DNA of 64,000 bases, from assembly GCF_015679265.1 (NCBI RefSeq), contig NZ_CP064942.1, forward strand, positions 186,001-250,000, written 5' to 3'. This stretch comes from Pontivivens ytuae (GTDB lineage: Bacteria; Pseudomonadota; Alphaproteobacteria; Rhodobacterales; Rhodobacteraceae). The notes below the pieces were generated by a model that had not been told where the DNA came from, searched no databases, and was given only the letters and a program-made list of their open reading frames with translations. Positions 11,191 through 62,202 of the stretch are shown here, piece after piece; position 1 is the stretch's first letter; each line of letters starts with the position of its first letter. Both the position numbers and the translations under genes were made by a program.

Positions 11191-11371
11191 GTCCCGGACC
11201 CGATCCGGGACCGTTTGCTCCACTCCTTGCGCTTGGAGGACGGAGACCCAGGAAAGGATCCGAATGGCTGGTGCCCACCATACCACCGTCCCGGCCGCAG
11301 CGCCGGGACCGCTCACTCCCTAAAAACCCGCCGTTCATCGAAACCCGAAGACCCCGGATCAAGTCCGGGGT
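11191..11371. repeat. Dispersed palindromic repeat cluster (REP-like), copy region 1
   Basis: Three palindromes in the 373-nt gap between convergent genes. GTCCCGGA/TCCGGGAC lies at 11191-11211 and GTCCCGGC/GCCGGGAC at 11288-11309. ACCCCGGA/TCCGGGGT lies at 11351-11371. A degenerate piece follows near 11456. The same core arms recur at four other places in this window. Nothing else gene-like is visible in 11185-11557. Confidence 0.75.
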
Positions 11372-11522
11372 GGTGCGGTTCCTTAGAGGACCGTTACTGC
11401 CAGCAGGTACGGGGCGGCGAATCGAGAGATCTCTGGTCAGCGAAGACCGATCGAACTCCGGGACAAACGCCGGGATCGCAGCGGCTGCCCTTCCACCGAA
11501 GCAGCAGGACCGAGTGGCACCG

Positions 11523-11553
11523 CTCTCTCTTCTCCAAATATCCCCGCCGGAGG
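11523..11553 (-). repeat. Short 3'-end motif copy (CCTCCGGCGGGGATATTTGG...)
   Basis: Read on the minus strand, immediately after the stop of the Mth938-like gene, the sequence is GCCTCCGGCGGGGATATTTG followed by a purine-rich tail GAGAAGAGAG. The same motif, with variations, occurs at 15711, 17908, 22943, 37918 and 49113, usually just downstream of genes. Confidence 0.7.
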
Positions 11554-11557
11554 CCGG

Positions 11558-11914
11558 TCAGCCGGCCACCACCGGGAACACCGCTGCCGCGATGCGCCGC
11601 CCTTCGCTCAGGAGCACGTTGTAGGTGCGGCAGGCCGAGGGCGAGGACATGACCTCGACGCCCATCCCGGCGGCCTCCAGCTCGGCGACCAGATCCTCGG
11701 GCGGGTTGGCGATGTCCGCGCCCATGCCGAGCAGCACGACGTCGATCGCCTCGGCCTCCGCGACCAGCGGGGCGGCCTCACCCGACCAGGCGACGGGGCC
11801 GGAGGGCAGCAAGGCCGCTCCGCCCTCGATCACCTGGCCGCCGACGCGGAAGAAGCCCTCGCCGTAGCCGTCCACCGGCTTCGATCCGTCATAGGTGATC
11901 TCGTTCAGTCGCAT
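11558..11914 (-). CDS. Mth938-like domain protein (DUF498/NDUFAF3-type fold)
   Basis: 118 aa. Features of the Mth938 fold: the N-terminal IxxY..GFFRVGGQVIEGGAALLP, central VDVVLLGMGADIANPPEDL-like strand-turn, and C-terminal SACRTYNVLLSEGRRIAAAV. Family members are small single-domain proteins; the eukaryotic relative NDUFAF3 is a complex I assembly factor, but the bacterial role is not established. In many alphaproteobacteria this gene follows yajC-secD-secF, as here, where it is the last gene of that minus-strand operon with a TauE gene in between. Confidence 0.88.
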   Translation of the reverse strand: MRLNEITYDGSKPVDGYGEGFFRVGGQVIEGGAALLPSGPVAWSGEAAPLVAEAEAIDVVLLGMGADIANPPEDLVAELEAAGMGVEVMSSPSACRTYNVLLSEGRRIAAAVFPVVAG

Positions 11915-11924
11915 GGTCTTTCCT

Positions 11925-12677
11925 TCAGTCGAACAGCGGCAGGCCCGTCAGGATCGCGAGCGCGATCACCGCGTAGGCGATGCGGCGGTAGGTCGTCTCG
12001 GCCTCGGGGCGGAACATGGCCTGCCCGATCCGTCCCGCCACCATGTATGGCACCACCAGAAGCGCGCCAGCGGCCAAAGCGCGCGCCGTCAGCAACCCCT
12101 GCGCCCAGAGCACGCCGATCAGGATGATGCCGAGGAGGTTGAGAAAGAGGAGCGTGTTGGCCCGCACCTTCTCCGCCCCCGAGGGGCCGGCGAGGTAGAA
12201 GAGTATGACGACCGGACCGGTGAGCCCCGTCATCCCACCTATCAGCCCCGCCCCACCGCCGAGACCGACGAGACCCGGCCGCCGCACCGTGCCGCGCCAG
12301 CGCCAGCCGGCGATCAGGGCGGCGAGGGTGATGACGGCGACGCCCGCGACGGTCCAGCGCAGCGCCTCCTGCGGCACGATCTTGAGCAGCGCCACGCCGA
12401 TCGGGGACAGGACCGCCGCGCCGAGCAGCAAGAGCCCTACTTCCCCGCGATCCGCCTGCCGCCAGGCTCGCGGCACCAGCGAGACGGTCGTCCCGAGCGC
12501 TGTCACCGACATCGCCACGATCGCCTCCTCGACCGGCAGAACGGTGGTGGCCACCGGCAGGAAGATCAGTGCCGCGCCAAAGCCTGCAAAGCCGAGCACC
12601 AGCCCGGCCGCGACGATGGCGAGAACAACGAGAAAGAAACCGGGGGTGGCCGCGACCGCCCCCAGCGCCTCAGGCAT
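11925..12677 (-). CDS. Sulfite exporter TauE/SafE family permease
   Basis: 250 aa, almost entirely hydrophobic with about eight predicted helices. The family's glycine-rich repeats are visible: VLGFAGFGAALIFLPV near the N-terminus and GGGAGLIGGMTGLTGPVVIL in the middle. TauE/SafE proteins move organic or inorganic sulfur anions or other small anions across the inner membrane; the substrate cannot be told here. ATG at 12677 overlaps the secF end by 8 nt, so it is translationally coupled. A TTG at 12689 is less likely. The gene sits between secF and the Mth938 gene. Confidence 0.88.
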   Translation of the reverse strand: MPEALGAVAATPGFFLVVLAIVAAGLVLGFAGFGAALIFLPVATTVLPVEEAIVAMSVTALGTTVSLVPRAWRQADRGEVGLLLLGAAVLSPIGVALLKIVPQEALRWTVAGVAVITLAALIAGWRWRGTVRRPGLVGLGGGAGLIGGMTGLTGPVVILFYLAGPSGAEKVRANTLLFLNLLGIILIGVLWAQGLLTARALAAGALLVVPYMVAGRIGQAMFRPEAETTYRRIAYAVIALAILTGLPLFD

Positions 12678-13659
12678 CGATATGGGCAAACTTCGTGCCG
12701 CCCTTCGGCCCGCCGCCGCTGCCGTCCTTCGACCAGTCGCGCTTCACGTCGAGGCGCAGCAGGATCGGGGCGGCGACGAAGACCGAGGAATAGGTCCCGA
12801 TGATGACGCCCCAGATCATCGCGAAGGTGAAGCCGCGGATCACCTCGCCGCCCAGCACGTAGAGCGAGATCAGCGCGAGCAGCGTGGTGACGGAGGTCAT
12901 CAGGGTCCGGCTCAGCGTCTCGTTGAGCGACAGGTTCAGCACGTCGCGCAGCGCCTTCTTCTTGTAGCGGCGCAGGTTCTCCCGCACCCGGTCGAAGACG
13001 ACGACAGTGTCGTTCAGCGAATAGCCGACGATGGTCAGGATGGCGGCGATGATGGCGAGATTGAACTCAATGCCCAGCAGACTGAAGATCCCGATCGTCA
13101 ACACCACGTCGTGCACCAGTGCCGCCACGGCCCCCAGCGCGAACTGCCACTCGAAGCGCAGCCAGATGTAGAAGAGCACGGCGCCCACGGCGAGACAGAC
13201 GGCGAGCGCGCCGGCGCGGACCAGCTCGCCCGAGACCTTGGCCCCGACGCTTTCGGTGGCCAGGATCGTGAGGCCCGCGAACTCGGCCCGAAGAGCCTCG
13301 ACGACGCGGTTGATCGTCTCCTGCTGGATCGCCTCCGCCCCGTCCTGCTGCTCGATGCGGATCATCGCGGCGTTGGCGGCGGCACCGGTGAGATCGGCCG
13401 CCGGATCGCTGATCTCGCTGACCGTCACGTCGCCCACGTCGAGCTCACCGAGGAGCGCGCGGTAGTCCTCCGTCGCCACCGGCTCCACCGTCTCGGTCAT
13501 GATCATCGAGCCGCCGCGGAAGTCGATGCCGTAGTTCAGGCCGACGGTGAAGAACAGCACGATGGAGGCGATGACCGCGATCAGCGACAGGCCGAAGGTT
13601 GCGGCCTGGATCTTGAAGAAATCGAGGGTCGTGCCCTGCGGCACCAGTCTCAGGCGCAT
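12670..13659 (-). CDS. secF: Protein translocase subunit SecF
   Basis: 329 aa. It works with SecD to support SecYEG-driven export from the periplasmic side using the proton gradient. Features: RLVPQGTTLDFFK at the N-terminus, first TM segment, NYGIDFRGGSMIM (SecD/F signature), a periplasmic domain to about residue 135, then five C-terminal TM segments with IVGYSLNDTVVVFDRVRENL. The long C-terminal tail after the last helix (DVKRDWSKDGSGG..) is basic. The frame extends upstream to 13761 inside secD, but the ATG at 13659 is 1 nt after the secD stop and gives the normal length. Confidence 0.95.
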   Translation of the reverse strand: MRLRLVPQGTTLDFFKIQAATFGLSLIAVIASIVLFFTVGLNYGIDFRGGSMIMTETVEPVATEDYRALLGELDVGDVTVSEISDPAADLTGAAANAAMIRIEQQDGAEAIQQETINRVVEALRAEFAGLTILATESVGAKVSGELVRAGALAVCLAVGAVLFYIWLRFEWQFALGAVAALVHDVVLTIGIFSLLGIEFNLAIIAAILTIVGYSLNDTVVVFDRVRENLRRYKKKALRDVLNLSLNETLSRTLMTSVTTLLALISLYVLGGEVIRGFTFAMIWGVIIGTYSSVFVAAPILLRLDVKRDWSKDGSGGGPKGGTKFAHIDA

Positions 13660-13660
13660 G

Positions 13661-15292
13661 TCAAACCTCGATAGTCTTGGGCCGCCGCGCGTCGAACCAC
13701 GTGACCACGAAGAGCCGCGTGACGAAGAGCGCGGTGAAGACGCTGGTGATGATCCCGACACCCAGCGTGACGGCGAAGCCGCGCACCGGGCCGGAGCCGA
13801 TGGCGAACAGGATCACGGCGGCGATGAAGGTGGTGATGTTGGCGTCGACGATGGCCGAGAACGCCTTGTCGTAGCCCTGCTGGATGGCGCGGGCGGGGCC
13901 TTTCGCCGATTTCAGCTCTTCGCGTATTCGCTCGAAGATCAGCACGTTGGCGTCCACGGCCATGCCGACCGTCAGCACGATCCCGGCGATGCCCGGCAGG
14001 GTCAAAGTGGCGCCGAGCACCGAAAGCACTGCGAAGATCATCGAGACGTTGAGGATCAGGGCCACGTTCGCGAAGAGCCCGAAGAGCCCGTAACTCAGCG
14101 CCATGAAGACGAGCACCGCGGCGAAGGCCACCATGGTGGCGAGCCGCCCTGCTTCGATGGAGTCTGCGCCAAGCTCCGGCCCGATGGTCCGCTGTTCGAG
14201 CACCACGATCTCCGCCGGCAGCGCACCGGAGCGCAGCAGGATCGCGAGGTTGTTGGAGCTTTCGGGCGTGAACTGTCCGGTGATGATGCCTGAGCCGCCG
14301 GGAATGGCGCTCTGGATCCGCGGGGCCGAGATCACCTCGTCATCCAGCACGATGGCGAAGGGCTGGCCGATATTGGCGGCGGTGTAGTCCCCGAATATCC
14401 GCGCGCCGGTCGCGTTGAAGCGGAAGGTGACGGCAGGCCGGTTGTTCTGATCGAAGCCCGGCTGCGCGTCCACGAGCTGCTCGCCCGACACGATGGGACG
14501 ACGTGTTAACACATAGAACGTGCCGGGTTCATCCACGGACGGCAGCACCATGTTGCCCCCACCCGGCCGCGCATTTTCGTCCGACGTGACGCTCACAACC
14601 TCGTGAAAGCCGAGGCGCGCGGTGGTCCCGATGATGTCGATGACCTCTTGGGCGGAGCCGACGCCGGGCACCTGAATCAGGATGCGGTCCGAGCCCTGCC
14701 GCTGGATCGTGGGCTCCCGCGTGCCGGTCTCGTCTACCCGGCGGCGCACGATCTCGACGGACTGGAGCAGCGTGCGGTTGTCGGTCGCCGCCTTCTCCTC
14801 ATCGCTGAGGCGGATGCGGATGCGGTCGCTGCCCTCGGGCACGATCTCGATATCGGTCTGGCCGATGCCGGTGAGCGTGGTGATCGGCGTCGCCAGCGTG
14901 CGCAGCGCCGTGACGGCGGCATCCTGCCCCGCGGGCTCACCGATGCGGAGCAGGAGCTCGCCTTCGACCGTGTCGACGCGGCGCACGGTGCCCACCTCAT
15001 CGCGGATGTCGCGCAGCACGCGCAGCGCCTCGGGGAAGATCCCCTCCATCCGCTCCTGATAGACGTCCTCGACCTGCACCTCGACCAGCAGATGCGCGCC
15101 GCCGCGCAGGTCGAGCCCGAGGTTCACCAGGCTCGATGGCAGGAACCCGGGCCAGGTCCCGCTCTCCCCCTCGGCGATGGCGTCGTTCGACGCTTCGACC
15201 TGGCTGTAGAACAGATTGGGGGCGGAAAACACCAGCGCGGCGAGGCAGAGGACCACCACGCCGAGCTTCTTCCAGAGCGGGAAGTCGAGCAT
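13661..15292 (-). CDS. secD: Protein translocase subunit SecD
   Basis: 543 aa. Partner of SecF in the SecDF accessory complex. Features in order: N-terminal TM helix (LGVVVLCLAALVFSAPNLFY), the LGLDLRGGAHLLVEV signature, a large periplasmic region with P1-type repeats, FTPESSNNLAILLRSGALPA before the C-terminal six-helix block, and GMAVDANVLIFERIREEL in that block. Starts 3 nt downstream of the yajC stop and ends 1 nt before the secF start, a compact yajC-secD-secF operon on the minus strand. Confidence 0.96.
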   Translation of the reverse strand: MLDFPLWKKLGVVVLCLAALVFSAPNLFYSQVEASNDAIAEGESGTWPGFLPSSLVNLGLDLRGGAHLLVEVQVEDVYQERMEGIFPEALRVLRDIRDEVGTVRRVDTVEGELLLRIGEPAGQDAAVTALRTLATPITTLTGIGQTDIEIVPEGSDRIRIRLSDEEKAATDNRTLLQSVEIVRRRVDETGTREPTIQRQGSDRILIQVPGVGSAQEVIDIIGTTARLGFHEVVSVTSDENARPGGGNMVLPSVDEPGTFYVLTRRPIVSGEQLVDAQPGFDQNNRPAVTFRFNATGARIFGDYTAANIGQPFAIVLDDEVISAPRIQSAIPGGSGIITGQFTPESSNNLAILLRSGALPAEIVVLEQRTIGPELGADSIEAGRLATMVAFAAVLVFMALSYGLFGLFANVALILNVSMIFAVLSVLGATLTLPGIAGIVLTVGMAVDANVLIFERIREELKSAKGPARAIQQGYDKAFSAIVDANITTFIAAVILFAIGSGPVRGFAVTLGVGIITSVFTALFVTRLFVVTWFDARRPKTIEV

Positions 15293-15295
15293 TGC

Positions 15296-15625
15296 TCAGT
15301 CCTTCGCGGGTTCGGTTTTCGACAGCACCTGGGCGACGGTGTTCTTGACGACGCGGACCTTGACGCCCTCAGCGAGTTCCACCTCGACCTCGTTGTCCTC
15401 CTTCACCTTCACGACCTTGCCGATCAGCCCGCCCTGCGTGACGACCTGGTCGCCGCGGCGCAGCGCCTCGACCATGTTCCGGTGCTCCTTCATCCGCTTT
15501 TGCTGCGGGCGGATCAGCAGGAAGTACATGATCGCGAAGATCAGGATGATCGGCAGGAAGGAGGCAAGGCCGGAGCCGGCGCCACCGGCAGCCTGCGCGT
15601 AGGCGGGGGTCACGATCATGGGCAT
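15296..15625 (-). CDS. yajC: Preprotein translocase subunit YajC
   Basis: 109 aa single-span protein. The Ala/Gly-rich N-terminus (TPAYAQAAGGAGSG) is followed by the typical helix LPIILIFAIMYFLLIRPQQK and a cytoplasmic part with MVEALRRGDQVVTQGGLIGKV. YajC associates with SecDF. Two closely spaced ATGs (15625, 15619) are possible; the second is better spaced from an AAGGG. First gene of the sec operon, divergent from serS. Confidence 0.94.
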   Translation of the reverse strand: MPMIVTPAYAQAAGGAGSGLASFLPIILIFAIMYFLLIRPQQKRMKEHRNMVEALRRGDQVVTQGGLIGKVVKVKEDNEVEVELAEGVKVRVVKNTVAQVLSKTEPAKD

Positions 15626-15710
15626 CCCTTATCGTTGGGGTGTCTAGGGTCGCGCGGAACGTATAGCGCCCCATGGGCGGGTGCAAGGCGGGGTGGCGGA
15701 TGGTCCGATC

Positions 15711-15733
15711 GCGTATTTGGGGAAAGATGAAGG
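15711..15733 (+). repeat. Short motif copy (GCGTATTTGG..AAAGATGAAG)
   Basis: In the 178-nt divergent region between yajC and serS, GCGTATTTGG followed by GGAAAGATGAAGG matches the tail half of the 3'-end motif family found at 11523, 22943 and 49113. This copy is not next to a gene end. The remaining intergenic bases presumably hold the yajC and serS promoters; I see no convincing -35/-10 pair. Confidence 0.5.
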
Positions 15734-15803
15734 CCGAGGCGATTGCGCGGGCAGGCGCGATTGCGCATAAGGCGCCGGCGACGTTCAGAAACCGGAGGAC
15801 ACC

Positions 15804-17093
15804 ATGCACGACATCCGCATGATCCGCGACAATCCCGACGCCTTCGATGCCGCGCTTGCGCGGCGCGGCGAGGCTGCGGTGTCCTCCGAACTGCTCGCCA
15901 TCGACGCCCGGCGGCGCGCCGCGATCCAGGCGGCGGAGGCGGCGCTTCAGGAGCGCAACCGCGCCTCGAAGGAGGTCGGCGCCGCCAAGGGCCGGGGCGA
16001 CGAAGCGGAATTCGAGCGCCTGCGCGCGCTTGTGGCCGAGAAGAAGGACGAGATCGCCCGGCTGGAGGAGGAGGCCAAGGCCGCGCAGGAGGAGCTCGAC
16101 GACCACCTGATGCGCCTGCCCAACCTGCCCTATGACAGCGTGCCCGACGGTGCGGACGAGGCCGACAATGTCGAGCTGCGCCGCTGGGGCACGCCGCCGG
16201 AATTCGACTTCACGCCGAAGGAGCATTACGAGCTCCCCGCTGCCAAGGGCCTCGATTTCGAAACGGCGGCGAAGCTGTCCGGCGCGCGCTTCGTGGTGCT
16301 GCGCGGCGCGATGGCGCGGCTGCACCGCGCGCTCGCCCAGTTCATGATCGATGTGCACGTCAACGAGAACGGGCTGGAGGAGACGGCGACCCCCGTCCTC
16401 GTGCGCGACGAGGCGATGCTGGGCACCGACAAGCTGCCCAAGTTCGGCGACGACAGCTACCAGACCACCAATGGCTGGTGGCTGATCCCGACCTCCGAAG
16501 TGACGCTCACCTATTCGGTGGCGGGCGAGATCCTCGATGCGGCCACCCTGCCCCGCCGCATGACGGCGCACACCCTGTGCTTCCGCTCCGAGGCGGGGAG
16601 CGCGGGGCGTGACACCGCCGGAATGCTGCGTCACCACCAGTTCGAGAAGGTGGAGATGGTCTCGATCACCCACCCGGACGAGAGCGACGCGGAGCTCGAG
16701 CGCATGACCCGCTGTGCGGAGGACATCCTGGAGCGGCTCGGCCTGCCCTATAGGACGGTCGTGCTCTGCACCGGAGACATGGGCTTCGGCGCGCGGCGCA
16801 CCCATGACATCGAGGTCTGGCTGCCGGGCCAGGACACCTACCGCGAGATCTCGTCCTGCTCGACCACGGGTGCCTTCCAGGCCCGGCGGATGAATGCCCG
16901 CTTCCGGCCCGAGGGTGGCGGCAAGCCCGAGTTCGTCCACACGCTCAATGGCTCCGGCCTCGCGGTGGGCCGCACGCTGATCGCGGTGCTGGAGAACGGG
17001 CAGCAGGCGGACGGCTCCGTGCTGCTGCCCCAGGCGCTGCACCCCTATCTGGGCGGCAAGACCCGGGTCACGGCGGAGGGTGTGCTGGCGTGA
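15804..17093 (+). CDS. serS: Seryl-tRNA synthetase
   Basis: 429 aa, full length. Charges tRNA-Ser (and tRNA-Sec where present). The N-terminus [22 protein letters not shown] leads into the long antiparallel coiled-coil arm (residues about 30-105, rich in Glu/Lys/Ala) that binds the tRNA variable arm. The catalytic core has class II motif 2 ([20 protein letters not shown]) and motif 3 ([19 protein letters not shown]). RBS GGAGGACACC precedes the ATG. Its stop codon overlaps the GTG start of the following nucleotidyltransferase gene. Confidence 0.97.
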
Positions 17094-17878
17094 CGACTAT
17101 CCCGGCGGAAGCGCGGGCGCGGGTCGAGGCTGCGCTCGACGCCATCGCCGTTGACGACGCGGTGCGCATCCCGATCGCGATCGAAAGCGGCTCACGCGCC
17201 TGGGGTTTTCCGTCGCCCGACAGCGACTACGACGCGCGGTTCATCTACTTGCGGGCTCCGGAGCGCTATCTGCGGCTGGAGCGGGATCGCGACGTGATCG
17301 AGCGGGAGATCACTGGCGATCTCGACGTGAACGGCTGGGATCTCGGCAAGGCACTGCGGCTGATCCTGAAGTCGAACGCGGTGGTGCTGGAATGGCTGCA
17401 ATCGCCGATCCGCTACCGCGACCACCCGGAGCTGCGGGCAGCACTCCTAGAGTTCGCAGAGCGCGCGCTCGATCGGCGGGCACTGACATGGCACTACCTG
17501 CGCCTCGCCGACGGAGCGCGGAAGGCCGCGGGCGATGGGCAAGAGGTGAAACTGAAGAAACTGTTCTACGCGCTGCGCCCGGCCCTGGCTCTCACTTGGC
17601 TGGAGCAGCGCACCGACCCGCCGCCGATGCAGATCGGCGCACTGATGTCCGGGCTGGAGCTGCCACAGGGGCTTCAGGATGAAACCGACGCACTCATAGC
17701 GCGCAAGGCCCGGACACGGGAACTCGGCACTGCGCCGGCGCCGCAAACCATCGTGGCTTTCGTCCGTGACGCGTTGGAGCAGGCGGCAGCGAGGACCTCC
17801 GAACCCCGGGATCGAACCCAACCAGACCTGCGAGAAGAGGCGGAGGACATCTTTCGCCACTGGGTCTACGCCGTCTGA
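17090..17878 (+). CDS. RlaP-type predicted nucleotidyltransferase (DNA polymerase beta superfamily)
   Basis: 262 aa. The N-terminal half has the pol-beta nucleotidyltransferase signature [20 protein letters not shown], with the GSR and the two metal-binding Asp of DxD (SDYD). Then [20 protein letters not shown] and the helical C-terminal half typical of the RlaP family (PF10127), proposed to act in RNA repair. The target is unknown. The GTG start at 17090 overlaps the serS stop by four bases, so it appears translationally coupled to a tRNA synthetase. The last 40 residues ([21 protein letters not shown]) are charged and probably flexible. Confidence 0.82.
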
Positions 17879-17907
17879 ACTGTGGCGCCATCGGCATCTG
17901 CGCCACT

Positions 17908-17940
17908 TTCCAGCTTGTTCCAAATATCCTCGCCGAAGGC
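17908..17940 (-). repeat. Degenerate copy of the short 3'-end motif
   Basis: Minus-strand reading GCCTTCGGCGAGGATATTTG then GAACAAGCTGGAA: same layout as the 11523 and 49113 copies with three or four changes. It lies about 30 nt after the stop of the RlaP-type gene, but in opposite orientation to it. The rest of 17879-18061 shows nothing beyond the RBS of the next gene. Confidence 0.45.
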
Positions 17941-18061
17941 CTTCGCCAGAGGCGAAGTCGGCAGCGCGAAACGACATTCGGAGGCACCACGGCATGATCC
18001 GGGTGGAGGAGATCCGCCGGCGGACGCAATGTCCCCGGGACAGCGTCCCGAGGAGTTTGCC

Positions 18062-18529
18062 ATGCCGATCCGCTTCCACGCCTTGCCCACCGACGAGGTC
18101 CGTGCCGTCCAACGGGGCGGTCCCGATTTCTGGGGAGGCGCGCCAGACCGGGCCATCAGCGACGGGGACGGTGTGCCTTGTCGGCACTGCTTGAAACCGG
18201 TGCCTGCGGGGGCCGCGTACCTCACTCTCGCCTGGCGGCCCTTTCCCGAAGCGCAGCCCTATGCCGAGGTCGGGCCGATCTTCCTGTGTGCCGAGGAGTG
18301 CGAAGCGCCCGCGCCATCGGCGAAGATCCCGGCCTTCCTCACCAGTCCCGACTACCTGATCAAGGGCTACACCGCCGATCACCGGATCTGCTACGGCACG
18401 GGCGCCATCGTGCCGACCAGCAGTATTCCGGAGGCGGCGGAGCGGATCCTCGAGGACCCCGATGTCGCTTTCGTGGATGTGCGTTCGGCGCGGAACAACT
18501 GCTTCCATGTGCGCATCACACGTCCGTAA
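18062..18529 (+). CDS. DUF1203 domain protein
   Basis: 155 aa from the ATG at 18062, which has AGGAG 8 nt upstream; the longer frame from 17882 is low-complexity. Typical DUF1203 features: N-terminal FxALPTDEVRAVQRGGPD, a CRHC pair near residue 40, AYLTLAWRPFP, FLCAEECE, YLIKGYTADHRICYGTGAIV and a C-terminal VRSARNNCFHVRI. Conserved Cys/His residues suggest metal binding. The molecular function is unknown. Same strand as, but loosely spaced from, neighbours. Confidence 0.85.
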   Translation: MPIRFHALPTDEVRAVQRGGPDFWGGAPDRAISDGDGVPCRHCLKPVPAGAAYLTLAWRPFPEAQPYAEVGPIFLCAEECEAPAPSAKIPAFLTSPDYLIKGYTADHRICYGTGAIVPTSSIPEAAERILEDPDVAFVDVRSARNNCFHVRITRP

Positions 18530-18593
18530 GGAGGTGTTGGCCCAGGGCCGCCGGGGCGATATCTCGGATTGGGCAACAAAGCGGCGGTTCCCC

Positions 18594-22940: not shown

Positions 22941-22942
22941 TC

Positions 22943-31737: not shown

Positions 31738-31835
31738 CGGTCCCGGCGCATTGGCCGGGACGGATCCGCGCGAGGAACCGCCCCGGACCTGATCCGGGGC
31801 CGTCTGGAAAGGTCCCGGCGCAACGGCTGGGACGG
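31738..31835. repeat. Dispersed palindromic repeat cluster (REP-like), copy region 2
   Basis: Three palindromes between the acyl-CoA dehydrogenase and GST genes: GTCCCGGC/GCCGGGAC at 31740-31761, GCCCCGGA/TCCGGGGC at 31780-31800, and GTCCCGGC/GCTGGGAC (one mismatch) at 31812-31833. Same arms as at 11191, 46460, 55638 and 62144. Confidence 0.8.
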
Positions 31836-46459: not shown

Positions 46460-46598
46460 GTCCCGGCTCTTCGGCCGGGACGGTCACAAAGGGTACCGCC
46501 CCGGACTTGATCCGGGGCCGCTCCTTTCGATTTTCGATGTCGTGACTCGGACAGACCGTAGCAACAGGAACTGAACGGTCCCGGCGCTAGGCCGGGAC
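46460..46598. repeat. Dispersed palindromic repeat cluster (REP-like), copy region 3
   Basis: GTCCCGGC/GCCGGGAC at 46460-46481, GCCCCGGA/TCCGGGGC at 46498-46518, and GTCCCGGC/GCCGGGAC at 46578-46598, in the gap between the convergent SDR and GcvT-like genes. It shows the paired A-B layout most clearly: cggt...ggt, about 16 nt, then accg...ccg. Confidence 0.8.
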
Positions 46599-54111: not shown

Positions 54112-54119
54112 AGTAGAGA

Positions 54120-54138
54120 GATTATTCTAGAACGAATC
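54120..54138. promoter_or_regulatory. Candidate TetR operator in divergent region
   Basis: Imperfect palindrome around TTCTAGAA (54125-54132) with GATT at 54120-54123 and AATC at 54135-54138 as outer arms, in a 47-nt AT-rich gap. Likely controls both divergent genes. Confidence 0.5.
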
Positions 54139-54158
54139 CTCGTGTAAAGGAGGCTCCC

Positions 54159-54518: not shown

Positions 54519-54611
54519 GGGCCGCCGGGCTTGAAAAGCGCCGCAATCCCTGCACCGTAGGGGCGCAGGTCCTATATGTGACCCAACGGAAAAACACAGG
54601 GAGACCACAAC

Positions 54612-55619
54612 ATGACGCTTCACGGGATGAAGACGCTTCTGGCGGCCGGGGCCGCCACGCTCGCCCTCACCCCCGCCTTCGCGGAACCGGCGGACTACAT
54701 CCTCGCCACAGCCTCGACCGGCGGGACGTACTACCCGGTCGGCGTGGCCCTTGCCACGCTCACCAAGGTGAAGCTGCAGCCGGGTGAGGAGATCGGTATG
54801 TCCGCCATCTCCTCCGCCGGATCGGGCGAGAACATCCGCCTGCTGCGCGAGAACGAGGCGCAGTTCGCGATCCTCCAGGGTCTCTTCGGCTACTACGCCG
54901 CGACCGGCACCGGCCCGCTCGAGGCCGACGGCCCGCAGGAGGAGCTGCGCTCCGTCACCATGCTGTGGCAGAACGTGGAGCACTTCATCCTCGACAGCGA
55001 CCGGGTGGATACGGGCACCATCGCCGACTTCGCCGGGCTCACCGGAGAGCCCATGGCGCTCGGCCGCCGCAACTCCGGCACGATCGGGTCGAACGCGGCC
55101 ATCCTCGGCGGCTTCGACGTGGACATCTACGCCGATTACGAACTCATCGAGGGGGGCTACGGCCCGTCCGCCGAGAGCCTGCAGAACGGCCAGTCGGTGG
55201 GCATCTCCACCCCCGCGGGCGTGCCGGTGGGCGCGGTCAGCCAGCTCTTCGCCTCGGTCGGTGACAGCGTGACGCTCCTCAACTTCACGCCCGAGCAGAT
55301 GACCCAGGCCGATGGCGGCCGCCAGCTCTGGACGGAGTACGTGATCGAGGCGGGCACCTATCCCGGCCAGGACGAGGCGGTGACGACCATCGCGCAGCCC
55401 AACTTCCTCGCCACCCGTGCCGACTTGCCGGATGAGAACGTCTACCTGATCACCAAGACGATCTACGAGAACCTGCCCTTCCTGCAGGCCATCCACCCGG
55501 CGACCCAGGCCATGGCAATCGAGCAGGCCATCGCGGGCCTGCCGCTGCCGCTGCACCCGGGCGCGATCCAGTACTACGAGGAAGTGGGCGTCGAGATCCC
55601 GGACCGCCTGCGTCCCTGA
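54612..55619 (+). CDS. TAXI-family TRAP transporter solute-binding protein
   Basis: 335 aa, signal peptide near MKTLLAAGAATLALTPAFA (ATG 54612 or 54627). TAXI signature: DYILATASTGGTYYPVGVAL, AISSAGSGENIRLLRENEAQ, FAILQGLFGYYAATGTGP, and PEQMTQADGGRQLWTEYVIE. Periplasmic binding protein for dicarboxylates or amino acids. Its fused permease is at 56971, separated by 1.35 kb. RBS AGGGAGACC. Confidence 0.9.
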   Translation: MTLHGMKTLLAAGAATLALTPAFAEPADYILATASTGGTYYPVGVALATLTKVKLQPGEEIGMSAISSAGSGENIRLLRENEAQFAILQGLFGYYAATGTGPLEADGPQEELRSVTMLWQNVEHFILDSDRVDTGTIADFAGLTGEPMALGRRNSGTIGSNAAILGGFDVDIYADYELIEGGYGPSAESLQNGQSVGISTPAGVPVGAVSQLFASVGDSVTLLNFTPEQMTQADGGRQLWTEYVIEAGTYPGQDEAVTTIAQPNFLATRADLPDENVYLITKTIYENLPFLQAIHPATQAMAIEQAIAGLPLPLHPGAIQYYEEVGVEIPDRLRP

Positions 55620-55637
55620 TCTCTTCACGCGCAACAG

Positions 55638-56019
55638 GTCCCGGCCCTGCGGCCGGGACGACAGCTACGTACCGCCCCGGCCCCTGCGCCGGGGCCGTCT
55701 CGTTTCAGGGGAACGCTCCACAATCGTTGCGCTGCGTGCCTTTCCCGTCGGCTTGCGGAGAAAAACAGGAAGGCGCCGAAAGCAGATACAGTCTCCGACA
55801 AACCTGCACATCGCTGGTAGAAGGTCCCGGCTCTTCGGCCGGGACGGTTGCTCCTTTCCCGACCGCCCCGGACTTGATCCGGGGCCGCTCACCAAGAGGC
55901 GCAAAGTTCGATGACGCGGGCCCGACGCCGCGCGAACCCCGACACACACTGCTCCAAACGGTCCCGGCTCTTCGGCCGGGACGGCCCCATGACCACCGGC
56001 CCGGACCCGATCCGGGGCC
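55638..56019. repeat. Dispersed palindromic repeat cluster (REP-like), copy region 4
   Basis: Six palindromes in A-B pairs: 55638-55659 with 55674-55695, 55824-55845 with 55865-55885, and 55961-55982 with 55998-56019 (last one with a mismatch). Largest cluster in the window. The 537-nt gap 55620-56156 holds nothing else I can support. Confidence 0.85.
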
Positions 56020-56156
56020 TTTCGCCTCTTCCCAAACCACATTTCATGCCCCGTTCATGTCGAGGTCAGGCCCCCTCCACCCCCGCTTCCCATCTTGAGC
56101 ACCAGTCGGAAGCGCAGCCGCGCCCGGCCCGAAGCGTCCAGCATGGGAGAGACGAC

Positions 56157-56759
56157 ATGAAACACTTCAAACGCATCCGCTCCGACGTGCCCACCGAGCC
56201 GTTCCTGGCCGAGATCGCCAGCGTCGACGACGCCTGGGCCAATGCCACCGGCCGGCAGGAGAAGATCGCCGTGCAGCGCGAGGCCCTCGCCATTCCGCTG
56301 CGCGGCCTACGCAAGTCGATGATCCACGGCCGCGCCCGCCGCGACGTGCATGAGAGCCGGTGGACCAGCGGCTCGGTCAACTTCCCCAAGGCCCGCGCCT
56401 TCATCGAGGAGGTCGCCGCCGAGCTCGATTGCGACCTCAGCCGGGCGAAGATCGTCTGCCTGCCCGCGGGCCGCCGCGTCTATCCCCACATCGATCGCGG
56501 CGAGTACTACCGCCTGCGCGGGCGCTACCACTTCGTCCTGAAATCCTCCGCCGGGTCCTGGCTGAAGGCCGGTGACGAGGAGGTCCGGATGCGCGAGGGC
56601 GAGCTCTGGTGGTTCGACAACGACGAGATGCACGAAGCCTTCAACGACGGTGACGAGGACCGGATCCACATGATCTTCGATCTGCTGCCTGTCGCACTGC
56701 GCCCGCGGACGGAGGAAGCAGCCCGGAAGGCCCTTGCCGAGCTCGGCGAGGTGGTGTGA
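56157..56759 (+). CDS. Aspartyl/asparaginyl beta-hydroxylase-domain protein
   Basis: 200 aa. Fe(II)/2-oxoglutarate cupin-like fold: CLPAGRRVYPHIDRGEYYRL with the first His, RGRYHFVLKSSAGSWLK, ELWWFDNDEMHEAFNDGDED with the second His. These likely hydroxylate an Asp/Asn side chain or a related small molecule; the target is unknown. RBS GGGAGAG before the ATG at 56157; the earlier frame from 55911 runs through the repeat cluster. Separates the TAXI binding protein from its permease. Confidence 0.85.
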   Translation: MKHFKRIRSDVPTEPFLAEIASVDDAWANATGRQEKIAVQREALAIPLRGLRKSMIHGRARRDVHESRWTSGSVNFPKARAFIEEVAAELDCDLSRAKIVCLPAGRRVYPHIDRGEYYRLRGRYHFVLKSSAGSWLKAGDEEVRMREGELWWFDNDEMHEAFNDGDEDRIHMIFDLLPVALRPRTEEAARKALAELGEVV

Positions 56760-56781
56760 GCCCAATCCGACTGCGCCTCCA

Positions 56782-56899
56782 CGGCGTGCGGGCGTTCCCC
56801 ACAGCGCCCGCACGCCGCATCACAACACAAGACCGCCTTGCCGAGATCGCCTGACCGCCCCTCCCCCGGCGAGAGCGCCCCGGGCCGCCGTCCGGGGCG
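56782..56899. terminator. Two hairpins between hydroxylase and TRAP permease
   Basis: Hairpin 1: CGGCGTGCGGGCG (56782-56794) with CGCCCGCACGCCG (56805-56817), perfect 13-bp stem, 10-nt loop, 22 nt after the hydroxylase stop. Hairpin 2: CGCCCCGG (56876-56883) with CCGGGGCG (56892-56899). Suggests termination and a separate permease promoter. Confidence 0.7.
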
Positions 56900-56970
56900 T
56901 TCGCACGTCTTCCCCTTGATCCCGCGCCCTGAGCCGGGCCAATCTCGCTCGACTGAGAGGGAGGAGCCCG

Positions 56971-59073
56971 ATGATCGACCCCGAAGACGCCGCCTCCGCG
57001 CCGACGCGCCAGCTCAAGGGGGCGCTGAACGTGCTCGTCATCGCGGTGTGCCTCGCGCTGTCGGTGGGCCACCTTTATGTGGCGATCTTCCCCGAGCTGT
57101 CGGAATACACACGCAACGTGCTGCACTTCGCGGGCTTCGCCTTCCTCGCCGCAATCCTCTACCCCGTCCTGCCACGGGAGTACTGCAAGACGAACCCGGT
57201 CTTTCTCACCGCCGATATCGCGCTGGGGCTGGCCGCCGTCGCCTCCGCCCTGTGGTTCGTGATCTCCTACGACCGGCTGACCCTGCCGGGCTGGGATTTC
57301 GGGACGCTCGACTGGATCGCCGGCGGGGTGCTCGTCATCATCGCGACCGAGCTCACGCGCCGCGTCGCGGGGCTGGTGATCCCGGTGCTCATCGTCATCT
57401 CGCTGTCCTACGTGACCTTCCTCGGCCCGATGATCGGCGGGATCTTCAGCTTCCGGGGGCTGAGTGCGGAATCCGCCCTCTGGCGCTCGATCTTCAATGA
57501 CGAGGCGCTGTTCGGCACGATCGCCAGCATCTCCTCGACCTACGTCTTCCTCTTCATCATCTTCGGCAGCTTCCTGATCCGCTCCGGCGCAGGGGAGTTC
57601 GTCATCGACCTCAGCCGCGCCATCGCGGGCAAGCTGGTGGGCGGCCCGGGCCTCGTCGCCGTCATCGCCTCGGGCCTGACCGGCACGATCTCGGGCAGCG
57701 CCATCGCGAACACCGCATCGACCGGCGTCATCACCATCCCGCTGATGAAACGCGCGGGCTTCCCGCCGAAATTCGCGGGCGGGGTGGAGGCGGCGTCCTC
57801 CACCGGTGGGCAGCTCATGCCACCGATCATGGGGGCGGGCGCGTTCGTTATGGCGAGCTTCACCCAGATCCCCTACGAGACCATCGTGGCCGTCGCGGCG
57901 CTGCCCGCGCTCCTCTACTTCCTCACCGTCGCGTTCTTCGTGCGGATCGAGGCGAAGCGTCACCAGCTCCCACCGATGGAGGCGCAGGGCCGCACGCTCT
58001 GGAGCGCCGTGAAATCCGGCGGAGCGAGCTTCATTATCCCCATCGCGGTGCTGATCTTCCTCCTCGTGTCCGGCTTCACGCCGACCTATGCGGCGGTGAT
58101 CGGGATCGTGGCCGTCATCGCCTCCTCCTGGCTCACGCAGAACCCGATGGGGCCGAAAGCGGTGTTCGAGGCGCTCGTCATGGGCGCGCGCAACATGGTC
58201 ATGACCGCCGTGCTGCTCTGCGCCGTGGGGCTCGTGGTCAACGTCATCACCACCGCAGGCATCGGCAACACCTTCTCCCTGATGATCGCGGAGTGGAGCA
58301 ACGGGAACATCCTGATCGCAATCATCCTCGTGGCACTGGCGAGCCTGATCCTCGGCATGGGGCTGCCGGTGACAGCGGCCTATATCGTTCTGGCCACCCT
58401 CTCCGCCCCCGCGCTTGCCGGCATGATCCAGGACCGCGCCGTGGTCGACATGATCGCCGCGGGCAACCTGCCGATGGAGGCGCAGGCGCTCTTCATGCTG
58501 TCGGCGCCCGAGGCGATCCCGCTGCTGGCCGAGGCGATGCCGAGGGCCGAGGCGCAGGCCCTCGTGGGCGCCCTGCCGCTGGAGGTCGCCGCCCCCCTGC
58601 GCGATCTCGTGGTCCAGCGGGAGGTTGCCGTCGCGGCCCTTCTCAGCGCCCACATGATCATCTTCTGGCTCAGCCAGGATTCCAACGTGACGCCGCCCGT
58701 CGCCCTCGCCTCCTTCACCGCCGCGGCCATCGCGAAGTCGAAGCCGATGGCGACCGGCGTGGCGAGCTGGAAGCTCGCCAAAGGCCTCTACATCGTGCCG
58801 GTGCTTTTCGCCTACACGCCGTTCCTGTCCGGCGACTGGCTCGCCGCGTTCACGGTCTTCCTCTTCGGGGTGTTCGGGACCTACGCGCTCGCCGGTGCCT
58901 TCCAGGGCTGCTACGAGCGGGTGATGGGCTGGCCGGCCCGGGCGATCGGCGCCGTGGCGGGCATCGCCTGCCTCTGGCCAGCGAACCTCACGGCCAATCT
59001 GATCGGAGTGGTGATCGTGGTGGCGCTGGTGGCGCTCAATGCGCGGGGCGCGCGCGTGGCGGCCCTCACATAG
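56971..59073 (+). CDS. TRAP transporter fused permease (DctQM-type, TAXI)
   Basis: 700 aa, about 16-18 hydrophobic segments. N-terminal DctQ-like part (residues 1-150) fused to DctM-like part: FLFIIFGSFLIRSGAGEFVI, SGLTGTISGSAIANTASTGV, GGVEAASSTGGQLMPPIMGA, and ILGMGLPVTAAYIVLATLSA. It imports substrate with the TAXI binding protein at 54612 using an ion gradient. RBS GAGGGAGGAG. Confidence 0.92.
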   Translation: MIDPEDAASAPTRQLKGALNVLVIAVCLALSVGHLYVAIFPELSEYTRNVLHFAGFAFLAAILYPVLPREYCKTNPVFLTADIALGLAAVASALWFVISYDRLTLPGWDFGTLDWIAGGVLVIIATELTRRVAGLVIPVLIVISLSYVTFLGPMIGGIFSFRGLSAESALWRSIFNDEALFGTIASISSTYVFLFIIFGSFLIRSGAGEFVIDLSRAIAGKLVGGPGLVAVIASGLTGTISGSAIANTASTGVITIPLMKRAGFPPKFAGGVEAASSTGGQLMPPIMGAGAFVMASFTQIPYETIVAVAALPALLYFLTVAFFVRIEAKRHQLPPMEAQGRTLWSAVKSGGASFIIPIAVLIFLLVSGFTPTYAAVIGIVAVIASSWLTQNPMGPKAVFEALVMGARNMVMTAVLLCAVGLVVNVITTAGIGNTFSLMIAEWSNGNILIAIILVALASLILGMGLPVTAAYIVLATLSAPALAGMIQDRAVVDMIAAGNLPMEAQALFMLSAPEAIPLLAEAMPRAEAQALVGALPLEVAAPLRDLVVQREVAVAALLSAHMIIFWLSQDSNVTPPVALASFTAAAIAKSKPMATGVASWKLAKGLYIVPVLFAYTPFLSGDWLAAFTVFLFGVFGTYALAGAFQGCYERVMGWPARAIGAVAGIACLWPANLTANLIGVVIVVALVALNARGARVAALT

Positions 59074-59074
59074 C

Positions 59075-59107
59075 CACCCCCGGCCGGGACGGGAGGATCC
59101 GGCCGGG
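59075..59107. terminator. Inverted repeat between convergent TRAP permease and small exported protein
   Basis: CCCCCGGCCGG (59075-59085) with CCGGCCGGGGG (59097-59107), perfect 11-bp arms and 11-nt loop, starting 1 nt after the permease stop. Likely bidirectional terminator. Confidence 0.65.
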
Positions 59108-59151
59108 GGCGTCCGGGGTGCATCACACCACGACGCACCCCTGTCGAGGGG

Positions 59152-59415
59152 TCAGGAGCTCGCCGCCTCGATCACTGCCGTGTAGAAATCGCATGCCCCT
59201 TCCGTCGTGCCCTCGGCGGTCATCTGCGCCTGACGCTCCTGCATCTGGATGGTCAGTTCCTGGGCGCGGTTCGGATCGGTCTGGGCCAGCGCCTCCAGCG
59301 CCAGCGTCGCCTCGGAGGCGAGCGCGTCGGCCTGCTCGGGCGTGCATTCCTGCGCGAGAGCAGCCGTGGCGCCAAGGCCGAGGGTCGCGATCATTGCGAT
59401 GAAAATCGTCCGCAT
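59152..59415 (-). CDS. Small exported protein (87 aa)
   Basis: ATG at 59415 with GGAGAC upstream. Signal peptide MRTIFIAMIATLGLGATAAL then ALAQ cleavage site; mature part ECTPEQADALASEATLALEA and MQERQAQMTAEGTTEGACDF with two Cys (one at each end) that could form a disulfide. Helical, periplasmic, function unknown. Confidence 0.72.
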   Translation of the reverse strand: MRTIFIAMIATLGLGATAALAQECTPEQADALASEATLALEALAQTDPNRAQELTIQMQERQAQMTAEGTTEGACDFYTAVIEAASS

Positions 59416-59711
59416 GATGAAGTCTCCAACGGTTCGTAGTGCCGAGGCGCGCGCTTGGGGCCCAGCCCCATCCTGTAACCCGCGTCCCGGGTGACACCTC
59501 TCGTGTCGAGGTGGAACGTGGCCCCGGCGCACCACACCCGCAATTTCAACTTGAAGTTGTAGCGCGCAGTTGAAATGTGATCGGCGGTGTGAAGCGCAAA
59601 ACGGCCGATTTGGGCCATTTGCCGCCCGCCGGGGTCACGCCCGGCCAGGCCCCGACACGCAACGGCCTGCCGGTTTCACCTGCTCGGCAAGGCCCCGCGC
59701 AGGGGCAACGC
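59416..59711. promoter_or_regulatory. Intergenic region with palindrome AATTTCAACT..AGTTGAAAT
   Basis: ATTTCAACT (59543-59551) pairs perfectly with AGTTGAAAT (59568-59576); an inner AACTTGAAGTT (59549-59559) is itself symmetric. This AT-rich spot in GC-rich DNA lies about 128 nt upstream of the 87-aa gene and is a good operator candidate. The rest of the 296-nt gap shows nothing. Confidence 0.5.
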
Positions 59712-60140
59712 TCAATCCTGGGAGGCCAGCGGCGGCCCCTCGCCGCCCAGCACCACCTCGAGCGGCATCTCGAAATTGTCGAAGAAGAGCCAGATCGGCG
59801 TGACTTCACCCGGCAGCGTGTCGAGCTCCTCGAACCGCAGGAACAGGCCGCCCGGCTCCAGGTCCAGCGCATGGCCCGGCGGGATCGCGATCTCGAACAC
59901 CTCCACCGGCTGCTCGTTCACCGTGCCGTAGACGAAGCCGTCCTCGCCGTCCGGCCCGTCCATGCCGTAGAGCGTGATCGGCACGTCCCCCACGTTGTAG
60001 ATGATGCCGTAGAGGTTCCACGCCTCGTCCCCATCCGCATGCAGCTCGGCGTTCACCACCGAGATGCCGATCTGCAGCTCCTGCGCACCGACCTGAGAGG
60101 CGAGCAGGAGGCAGACGAGGAGGGGGAGAACCGCCCTCAC
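59712..60140 (-). CDS. PCu(A)C-like exported protein without canonical copper ligands
   Basis: 142 aa starting GTG at 60140 (overlaps the DppC-type stop by 4 nt). Signal peptide [20 protein letters not shown]. Beta-rich domain with [40 protein letters not shown] and [20 protein letters not shown], resembling the copper chaperone PCu(A)C fold, but the H-M...HxM copper motif is not seen. Perhaps a structural homologue with another role. Confidence 0.7.
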
Positions 60141-61069
60141 CGCCCGCGGATATGCGGGTCCAGCGCATCGCGCAGACCGTCGCCAATGTAGTTGACGCTG
60201 AGAACCGTGAGCGACAGCACCAGCCCCGGCCAGAACACCCGCGCGGGCGTGAGGTCGAGGAAGTCCTTCCCGTCGAAGAGGAGCCGCCCCCAGGTCGGGA
60301 AGTCCGACGGAAAGCCGAGGCCGAGGAAGCTCAGCGCGCTCTCCGTGATGATCGCCGTCGCGATGCCCAGCGTGGCGCTCACCATGATCGGGCTCAGCAC
60401 GTTGGGCAGGATATGCCGCAGGATGATGCGATAGGCGGGCGTCCCGATAGACTTCGCGGCCAGCACGAACTCCCGCTCCTTCAGCGCGAGCACGTCGCCG
60501 CGCACGATGCGCGCGGTCTGCATCCAGCTCGTGATCCCGATGATGAAGACGACGAGCAGGAAGATCCCCGCCTCCGGCCCGAACATCGTGCGCAGCGTGT
60601 CGCGGAAGAGCAGAATGATGACCAGCAGCAGCGGCAGGATCGGCAGGGCGAGGAACAGGTCCGTCAGGCGCATCAGCGGCCCGTCGAGTCGGCGGAAATA
60701 GCCCGCCATCACCCCGATCAGCGTTCCGAGCACGATGGCGATGCCCATCGCGGTCACCCCCACCAGGAGGGAGACGCGGCCCCCCTGCATGACCTGCGCG
60801 AGCACGTCGCGGCCCAGGTTGTCCGTCCCCATAGGATGGGTCCAGGACACCGGCGCGTTGCGCGCCCGGAAATCGAGATAGGTCGGATCGATCGTGTGGA
60901 TGTAGGGCCCCACCGTCACCATCAGCACGATGAAAGTGAAGACGAAGAGCCCCGCCATCGCCCCGCGGTGGGCAGTGAACTGGCTCCACACATCCCGCGC
61001 CAGGGTGCGCGGACGATCCTCCACCGCCTCGACGGCAGCCTCGGCGGTCATGCGGGTCTGGTCACTCAT
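60137..61069 (-). CDS. Dipeptide/oligopeptide ABC permease, DppC-type
   Basis: 310 aa. TM segments with the OppC-type N-terminus, [20 protein letters not shown] (permease signature), [20 protein letters not shown], and [20 protein letters not shown] (EAA loop). Inner-membrane partner of the DppB-type permease. Starts 8 nt before the end of that gene. Confidence 0.93.
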
Positions 61070-62072
61070 AGCGGATCCTCGGGTCCAGGATGCCGTAGAG
61101 GATGTCGGCGATCAGGTTGAAGAGCACGATGAGGATCGCGAAGATGAAGGTCAGCGTCTGCACCAGCGGGATGTCCGCCCCCTGGATGCCGATGATCAGG
61201 AGCTGCCCGATCCCGTTCACGCGGAAGATCTGCTCGGTGATGATCGCCCCGCCGAAGATCGTGGGGATGTTGAGCGCGATCACCGTAACCACCGGGATCA
61301 TCGAGTTGCGCAGCACGTGGATCCAGACCACCACCCGCTCGCCCAGCCCCTTCGCCCGCGCCGTGCGCACGTAGTCCGCACTCAGGTTGTCGAGCATCGA
61401 GGCCCGCATGTAGCGGCTGAGCTGCGCGGCCGTGGCCAGCGCCAGCACCATGGTCGGCATGATCATCTGCTGGATCTGGAACACGAAGCTGTCCCAGTCC
61501 GTCACCCGGTGGTTCGTGTCGTAGATCGAGGGGAACCAGCCGAGGTTGACCGAGAACACCACGATGAACACCAGCCCGGTGAAGAAGGTGGGGATCGAGA
61601 AGCCCACCATGCTCACGAAGGTGCCGATCTGGTCGAACCAGGAATACTGCCGGTAGGCCGAGATCACCCCGATCGGCACCGCGATGATCACCGCGATCAC
61701 CTGCGACATGCCCACCACCCACAGCGTCTGCGGCAGCCGCTCGATGATGAGGTCGACGACCGGCGAGCGCGTTGCCCAGGACGTCACCCTGAGCCGGTCG
61801 CCGTCGCCGAACTGCCAGCCGGTCCAGCCCTCGATCAGGTTCAGCGGCTCGTTGATGAAGAACTGGTTGAGCCAGAGGAGATACCGGATCGCAAACGGTT
61901 CATCGAGGCCCATCGAGGCGCGGATCTGCTCCCGCACCTCCGGCGGGATGGTCAGCGGCAGGTTGCCCGTCGGATCGGACGGCGCAAGGTCGAGGATGGC
62001 AAAGATGATGAAGCTGATGGCCAGGAGCGTCGGGATCGCGAAGAGCAACCGTCTGATGGTATATGCAAACAT
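61062..62072 (-). CDS. Dipeptide/oligopeptide ABC permease, DppB-type
   Basis: 336 aa. N-term MFAYTIRRLLFAIPTLLAIS, INPVV-type periplasmic loop, YVRTARAKGLGERVVVWIHV (EAA loop) and VTVIALNIPTIFGGAIITEQ. First permease of the operon. Promoter probably upstream with the binding protein; a repeat cluster lies between them. Confidence 0.93.
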   Translation of the reverse strand: MFAYTIRRLLFAIPTLLAISFIIFAILDLAPSDPTGNLPLTIPPEVREQIRASMGLDEPFAIRYLLWLNQFFINEPLNLIEGWTGWQFGDGDRLRVTSWATRSPVVDLIIERLPQTLWVVGMSQVIAVIIAVPIGVISAYRQYSWFDQIGTFVSMVGFSIPTFFTGLVFIVVFSVNLGWFPSIYDTNHRVTDWDSFVFQIQQMIMPTMVLALATAAQLSRYMRASMLDNLSADYVRTARAKGLGERVVVWIHVLRNSMIPVVTVIALNIPTIFGGAIITEQIFRVNGIGQLLIIGIQGADIPLVQTLTFIFAILIVLFNLIADILYGILDPRIRYE

Positions 62073-62143
62073 CGGCGTTCCGGGTCATGAGCTTGGGTGA
62101 GGGAAGCGGCGGCGCACCGCCGCTCCGGTTCTTGGCTGCGACC

Positions 62144-62202
62144 GCCCCGGACCTGATCCGGGGCCTCCCCGTAGCGGGGAGGTCCCGGCGCAGGGCCGGG
62201 AC
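62144..62202. repeat. Dispersed palindromic repeat cluster (REP-like), copy region 5
   Basis: GCCCCGGA/TCCGGGGC (62144-62164), CCTCCCC/GGGGAGG (62164-62182) and GTCCCGGC/GCCGGGAC (62182-62202), contiguous, between the binding-protein and permease genes. Orientation B then A, reverse of region 3. Confidence 0.8.

Follow-up and report, generated by a model that had tools for sequence, protein, structure and literature searches.

Pontivivens ytuae carries, throughout its 4.20-Mb single-contig genome (G000), a short palindromic repeat that is described here from a 64-kb window (G000:C1:186001-250000; the whole stretch of DNA that was analysed). A preliminary description of the window, made from its letters, had expected the palindrome to be numerous in the genome, and it is: the exact-copy pattern GYCCCGGM-N(3-8)-KCCGGGRC occurs 213 times, against 3 times for the same pattern read backwards as a control, and one stem variant in its strict form (type B, below) occurs 42 times against 0. 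The unit is asymmetric and has two stem variants, forms heterodimers at preferred spacings, lies on the 3' side of genes, is present or absent at a given site among sister species, and often stands in register with a longer hairpin in a composite. Taken together, these features suggest that it is probably a non-autonomous, DNA-hairpin-borne repetitive extragenic palindromic (REP) element of a CGTC-like branch, kept downstream of genes; its spread and any function are what we infer.

The repeat unit

In the window, 14 exact palindromes were found (8 type A, 4 type B and 2 with mixed stems), all within the five intergenic regions where two palindromes had been noted before, whereas 60 dinucleotide shuffles of the window gave a mean of 0.05 and a maximum of 1. 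Their loops are 5-6 nt long and none of the 14 lies within a called gene, as had also been stated. The anatomy of the unit was read from 126 exact copies. These come from a 526-kb sample of the genome that comprises the window, 30 type B loci, 30 stretches surrounding listed copies and 10 blind 20-kb stretches, and is thus chosen around copies and copy-enriched by design.

The palindrome is a single oriented unit with an ACC head, an 8-bp stem enclosing a loop of 5-6 nt (GYCCCGGM-loop-KCCGGGRC) and a C(T/G)(T/C)T tail; the CGGT/ACCG flanks of the preliminary description proved to be its conserved head. Type A has an inner C:G pair and most often the loop CGAAGC, and type B an inner A:T pair and loops of the CNTGA kind. 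The loop is 6 nt long in 59 of the 63 type A units with a T:A outer pair, and 5 nt long in 39 of the 41 type B units with a C:G outer pair. The ACC head is present in 111 of the 126 units, a count that is partly a product of construction, as orientation was assigned from the flanks; used as an independent check on orientation, the loops confirm it in 102 units, contradict it in none and leave 24 undecided. Among the commonest non-ACC heads listed, none is of the CGTC type. The stem starts with G-T or G-C, as fixed by the search pattern, and tails such as CTTTC, CGCTC and CGTTC hold a few T at most. When both variable stem positions were left free, each was complementary in 132 of 135 units (67.9 and 63.8 expected). 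The outer position showed no G-T pair and two of C with A, the wobble of the opposite strand, and the inner position one G-T and one C-A pair. This near-absence of G-T pairs points, weakly, to stem complementarity that reflects symmetry at the level of DNA more than pairing in RNA.

Dimers with unlike stems

Thirty-nine neighbouring pairs lie within 70 nt of each other in the sample. With ACC taken as the head, 26 are tail-to-tail, 12 head-to-head and one direct, which upholds the REP-like or bacterial interspersed mosaic element (BIME)-like architecture proposed earlier: these are inverted dimers of an oriented stem-loop unit. Half of the tail-to-tail dimers (13/26) have 30-32 nt between their stems, and head-to-head gaps measure 13-20 nt.

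The two stems of a dimer are seldom alike. In 36 of the 39 dimers the partners have different outer pairs (T:A or C:G), compared with 19.6 expected, and identical stems occur in only two, compared with 13.5 expected (0 of 20,000 permutations in each case). In the dimers listed, a type A unit with a C:G outer pair has a type B partner with T:A, so that what is conserved looks like the unlikeness of the partner stems and not a fixed letter. Inheritance of unlike stems from a few founder dimers is an alternative account of this pattern.

Position relative to genes

Extragenic placement on the 3' side of genes holds beyond the window: in the 526-kb sample, 125 of 126 copies lie outside called open reading frames (ORFs), and the sole exception overlaps the 3' end of an ORF by 13 nt. 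Among intergenic segments 70 bases or longer, those that hold copies comprise 36 convergent, 34 tandem, 3 divergent and 1 unclassed, compared with 20, 129, 77 and 24, respectively, among segments with neither copies nor the long-hairpin module described below. Divergent gaps are thus avoided (3/73 with copies vs 77/226 without, P 4e-8) and convergent gaps favoured over tandem ones (36/34 vs 20/129, P 6e-9), in a test without matching for gap length (medians 273.5 and 143). In the window and the ten blind stretches only, 0 of 11 classed gaps with copies or module were divergent, compared with 39 of 129 without (P 0.03). Within tandem gaps, 39 of 55 units are closer to the stop of the upstream gene (P 0.003). 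Lone units in these gaps show no orientation bias (11 vs 10), and in convergent gaps the tail of a lone unit is directed away from the nearer gene in 13 of 18 cases (13 vs 5).

A composite with a long-hairpin module

The flanks of the tail-to-tail dimers are repeated too, as BLAST connects 120 of the sample's 373 intergenic segments in a single group. Read in the B-to-A direction, the composite consists of a module of about 150 bp, a 19-nt link, a type B unit, about 31 nt, a type A unit and, often, palindromes of the CGTC type (CGTCATCCTCGGG...CCCGAGGATC). The distance from module to type B is exactly 19 nt at four places. All eight CGTC-type palindromes found in this A/B-enriched sample stand beside A/B units, and an exact A/B palindrome lies near 17 of 25 modules, compared with 5.1 expected and a maximum of 12 in 500, in the same A/B-rich sample.

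The module arms, GGGCCGCGCCCGACCT and AGGTCGGGCGCGGCCC, form a covarying 16-bp stem. Across 30 sequences, 97.7% of 480 cells pair and 5 of the 16 pairs are changed on both sides, while slid controls give 33-48% pairing; these sequences (22 from 21 other genomes and 8 from P. ytuae, the 30 being taken from 41 copies that are full-length and higher-scoring, out of 59 places) are related, so that the counts should not be read as probabilities. A covariance model gave at least 98 matches at no fewer than 81 distinct places in P. ytuae, with 150 of 7,736 first-look candidates scored. L008:1332-1482 is an example from this genome and L152-L180 provide others from elsewhere; variants include a compact form of about 86 nt and forms with an additional hairpin inside the 3' arm. 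One compact copy lies in the window itself, between convergent genes at 5658..5745 on the forward strand (outer GGGCAGCGCCCGACCC stem and following hairpin; cmsearch model R1, 55.5 bits, E 1.8e-8; fold -64.7 kcal/mol), and is a related feature that the preliminary description had missed. Module gaps in P. ytuae are divergent in 3 of 23 classed cases (P 0.06), a weaker avoidance than that of the palindromes, and in other genomes in 0 of 25 classed places, with 6 unclassed, a rough count because the gene caller uses P. ytuae codon usage. Module orientation shows no clear bias (11 same, 19 opposite).

Rfam returned no module match at eight composite loci. The sole match there at E up to 1 was an unrelated thiamine pyrophosphate riboswitch (RF00059, 65.9 bits, L028:1956-2049), near a composite copy.

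With one composite copy as a DNA query and two candidates scored per genome, 201 of the 394 family genomes give a match at E<=1e-3 and 129 at E<1e-6. Among the matches listed, nearly all fall within the module, mostly in its 3' part, and the weak ones may be chance likenesses of GC-rich hairpins. Of 385 genomes drawn from across the class, with stricter filters and up to seven candidates per genome, four match the module, all of the same family, a fifth family genome being without a match and the other 361 non-matching genomes unlisted. The linked module, with its class-wide matches only in the family of the window, bears out the Rhodobacterales setting in which the repeat had first been placed.

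Plasmid carriers belong to Leisingera, Phaeobacter, Sulfitobacter, Paroceanicella, Ruegeria and Tritonibacter. The plasmid matches listed cover at most 42% of the query, namely the 3' arm and the following hairpin, which make up the 3' third of the module; by eye, the whole module stem is seen in Phaeobacter inhibens P57, Leisingera sp. M527 and L. methylohalidivorans. On the P. inhibens plasmid, a module lies between rfbB and rfbD. At one Leisingera site, the 7 of 17 matching records examined present full, truncated, diverged, hairpin-only and remnant states, and strains of Leisingera aquaemixtae (L195 and L196 vs L191) are not alike at one plasmid site, the difference being part of the long hairpin. 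The module had no match in phage records.

Copies in relatives and other bacteria

Among the genomes searched, the ACC-headed repeat is abundant only in P. ytuae, which has 185 copies; no other of the 394 family genomes drawn has more than 7 (G013 with 7 and G354 with 6 come next), and any match was found in 58 of them. Only one of the three sister species (G003) was part of this draw, G001 and G002 being outside it, and none of the 14 exact copies examined in G002 has the ACC head. Without the head requirement, the pattern occurs 213 times in P. ytuae, 7 in G001, 33 in G002 and 4 in G003, and is also frequent in three further relatives: G013 (92, control 6), G023 (57, control 13) and G006 (25, control 1).

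Site 62144 of the window holds a dimer in P. ytuae, a diverged dimer in G002 and none in G001 and G003. Adjoining it at 62105-62124 is a GC hairpin (AGCGGCGGCGCACCGCCGCT) that is kept in all four species and is perhaps a resident terminator.

A scan for the A-B pattern returned nine contigs, including four of Rhodobacteraceae and Labrenzia, and may omit P. ytuae itself; no module was found in these nine named loci (56.7 kb, not whole genomes). Two Wenzhouxiangella loci (L031 and L038) contain A/B cores that bear CGTC/TGTC tags, and the tail-to-tail spacers of L031 measure 31 nt. A Parcubacteria metagenome-assembled genome (MAG; L032) has such cores with TGTC tags, and a gammaproteobacterial contig (L033) has them without a tag and with a 30-nt spacer. 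Transfer across distant groups, or misbinned contigs, could possibly account for these four. The tail-to-tail spacers of P. ytuae and Wenzhouxiangella are of equal length, and common descent of the spacer was rejected as their similarity is not significant (P 0.26 and 0.52).

Copies along the window

The first region holds a mixed-stem unit with an outer T:A and an inner A:T pair (11191..11211, forward strand), a type A unit with its ACC head at the left (11288..11309, forward) and an imperfect type B-like unit seen by eye (ACCCCGGATCAAGTCCGGGGT; 11351..11371, reverse). In the second, a type A unit (31740..31761, reverse) stands head-to-head with a type B unit (31780..31800, forward), beside an imperfect type A unit with one mismatch, found by eye (31812..31833, reverse). 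A further head-to-head pair is made up of type A at 46460..46481 (reverse) and type B at 46498..46518 (forward), the latter also lying tail-to-tail, 59 nt apart, with type A at 46578..46598 (reverse). Behind the gene of a TAXI substrate-binding protein, identified with Pfam, come type A (55638..55659, reverse), a mixed-stem unit with outer and inner C:G pairs (55674..55695, forward), type A (55824..55845, reverse) head-to-head with type B (55865..55885, forward), type A (55961..55982, reverse) and, by eye, an imperfect type B unit with a ctttcg tail (55999..56019, forward). The dimer at the last site joins type B (62144..62164, forward) tail-to-tail to type A (62182..62202, reverse), both also placed by the alignment of sister species. 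Pattern matches define all but the three units found by eye, which account for the remaining edges of the regions noted earlier (11351-11371, 31812-31833 and about 55999-56019).

The gap between the TAXI and dctM genes (55620-56770; L129-L131) differs among the sister species: by eye, unlike palindromes are present in P. ytuae and G003, another hairpin in G001 and remnants in G002. It contains an extra gene in P. ytuae, for an aspartyl/asparaginyl beta-hydroxylase (56157-56759).

Gene calls agreed with Pfam for six of the first ten ORFs, which had matches on the called strands (ABC transporter, acyl-CoA dehydrogenase, glutathione S-transferase, short-chain dehydrogenase, TAXI-type binding protein and DctM); the four matchless ones are competing frames. 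A second scan gave matches for 7 of 7 called ORFs. The Rfam 15 covariance models had no match in the window at the gathering threshold.

Comparison with known repeats

Of the named kinds, the CGTC-tagged REPs of Alphaproteobacteria come closest and share the stem-loop core (Di Nocera et al. 2013, PMC3733652). As described there, such REPs have a CGTC (or TGTC, CCTC) tag at one end, a stem of 8-9 bp with AT in its first two positions and a loop of 4-5 nt; head-to-head dimers predominate, tail-to-tail ones are rare, and there is no dedicated transposase. The P. ytuae repeat resembles them, as there described, in its 8-bp stems, the 5-nt loop of type B, its inverted dimers, the preference for heterodimers (which some CGTC families show), and its intergenic position between tandem and convergent genes, in a group of repeats found mostly in Alphaproteobacteria. 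Two transposase classes were searched for, PF01797 and PF02371, and neither was found in the genome. It departs from the same description in that its head is ACC and not CGTC, its stem begins with G-Y and not AT, its tail is C(T/G)(T/C)T and not CCA, the type A loop is 6 nt long, and tail-to-tail dimers (26) outnumber head-to-head ones (12). Because tag, stem base, tail and dimer polarity differ, we do not class it as a member of the CGTC-tagged REPs. The preliminary description knew of no named family to match; a near named kind does exist (PMC3733652), though the repeat lacks some of its defining features. A common origin is likely, because the same cores carry CGTC/TGTC tags in Wenzhouxiangella and the Parcubacteria MAG and occur untagged in the gammaproteobacterial contig.

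Resemblances to other systems are looser. As in the present repeat, inverted units alternate across spacers of shorter and longer length in BIMEs. The BIMEs, GTAG-tagged REPs and REPINs of Escherichia coli and Pseudomonas (PMC3116915) differ in the GTAG tag and the RAYT gene, neither of which was found here. Rhizobial RIMEs and ABC palindromes, likened by description only, are also multi-palindrome intergenic families of Alphaproteobacteria, of unknown function according to PMC2573895. The module, in contrast, matched only the family of the window in the 385-genome draw, whose rhizobial content is not shown. Caulobacter intergenic repeats are long intergenic repeats of an alphaproteobacterium, and Chen and Shapiro reportedly linked them in 2003 to CcrM methylation sites.

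Spread, persistence and alternative explanations

On our favoured reading, a REP-type element would spread as a dimer or composite via folded single-stranded DNA, on which an enzyme outside the Y1/RAYT and IS110 types, or one since lost, would act. Copies would persist behind genes, where insertion does least harm, being tolerated or mildly useful; in this position the hairpins may, in addition, terminate or shield transcripts that arrive from either side. A dimer with unlike stems would be favoured, possibly because a long palindrome that is perfect is unstable when replicated, and PMC3733652 proposes that unlike stems may escape the clearance of long hairpins.

The preliminary description had supposed that a RAYT transposase may drive the repeat. 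This did not hold: a search that does detect PF01797 in E. coli and Caulobacter found none in P. ytuae, and none was found in G001-G003, G006, G013 or G023, of which G002, G006, G013 and G023 are the most palindrome-rich among 60 relatives searched. The inverted doublets do resemble REPINs, but with no PF01797 in these genomes and no GTAG tag, the idea of REPs or REPINs driven by a RAYT (Y1) is largely refuted and highly improbable, although a RAYT since lost may have acted in the past. IS110-type elements target REPs and dRS3 repeats. An IS110-type mover was rejected, as PF02371 was not found in P. ytuae; it is also absent in G001, G006 and G023, and present in G002, G003 and G013.

That the hairpins are transcription terminators or 3'-end mRNA stabilisers of the host, kept and copied for their function and similar through functional selection, is a rather unlikely alternative, though one with several points in its favour. 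Convergent gaps are enriched, classed module gaps elsewhere are never divergent, tandem-gap units lie nearer the upstream stop, lone units in convergent gaps mostly turn their tails away from the nearer gene, and the TAXI-DctM gap holds differing hairpins or remnants across the four sister species. The tails, however, lack a U-tract, lone tandem-gap units show no orientation bias and the module no clear one, copy number varies between sister species, and conservation of the ACC head, the loop and the dimer spacing is nothing that a terminator requires. Intrinsic terminators in particular were rejected on the missing U-tract and tandem-gap orientation bias. Sites scattered at gene ends that bind a protein of the nucleoid or of supercoiling (gyrase, IHF-like) would fit the oriented head, the preferred spacings and the preference for convergent genes, between which supercoils are expected to collide. 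Patchy presence in relatives is odd for the sites of a conserved protein and none of the results here identifies a binder, which leaves this improbable.

Some observations count against a mobile, REP-type element as well. The avoidance of divergent gaps is equally expected from a function at 3' ends. No mover was found, among the Y1 and IS110 transposase classes, the only ones searched, and no target-site duplication was seen by eye at the aligned 62144 insertion or in the module flanks. The sister genomes are only about 71-82% identical in long matches, so that junctions are blurred and gain is not separable from loss; nor are gain and loss of the module distinguishable at the Leisingera site. 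Homodimers do occur in G013 and G023. In RNA folds, 20 of 38 heterodimers (5/12 head-to-head and 15/26 tail-to-tail) cross-pair into a long hairpin, which rules out unlike stems as a full block on cross-pairing. The cross-paired forms usually have fewer base pairs (15-20) than two checked homodimer sites of G023 (21 and 19). As heterodimers still cross-pair in these models, unlike stems are predicted to weaken the long palindrome without abolishing it, and the folds fit the clearance-escape idea, as put forward in PMC3733652, only partly.

For the composite as a whole, we tentatively consider that it may be a palindromic mobile element of Rhodobacteraceae that is undescribed in the open-access literature, in which a hairpin of about 150 bp, old in the family, has in this lineage become joined in a fixed register to dimers of the REP and CGTC types, and which is spread by machinery other than Y1/RAYT or IS110. 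The core letters of the palindrome or the module stem were found in no open-access text, and the available parts of a Ruegeria small RNA paper contain no such repeat.

Implications

The annotation of Rhodobacteraceae genomes seems to lack the long-hairpin module. That dimers almost exclusively combine unlike stems is relevant to the heterodimer preference that goes unexplained in PMC3733652, where the way in which CGTC-type REPs multiply without a dedicated transposase is also posed as an open question. With a strong expansion in a complete, single-contig genome, copy-poor sister species and neither Y1 nor IS110 transposases found in it, P. ytuae narrows the candidates for a mover.

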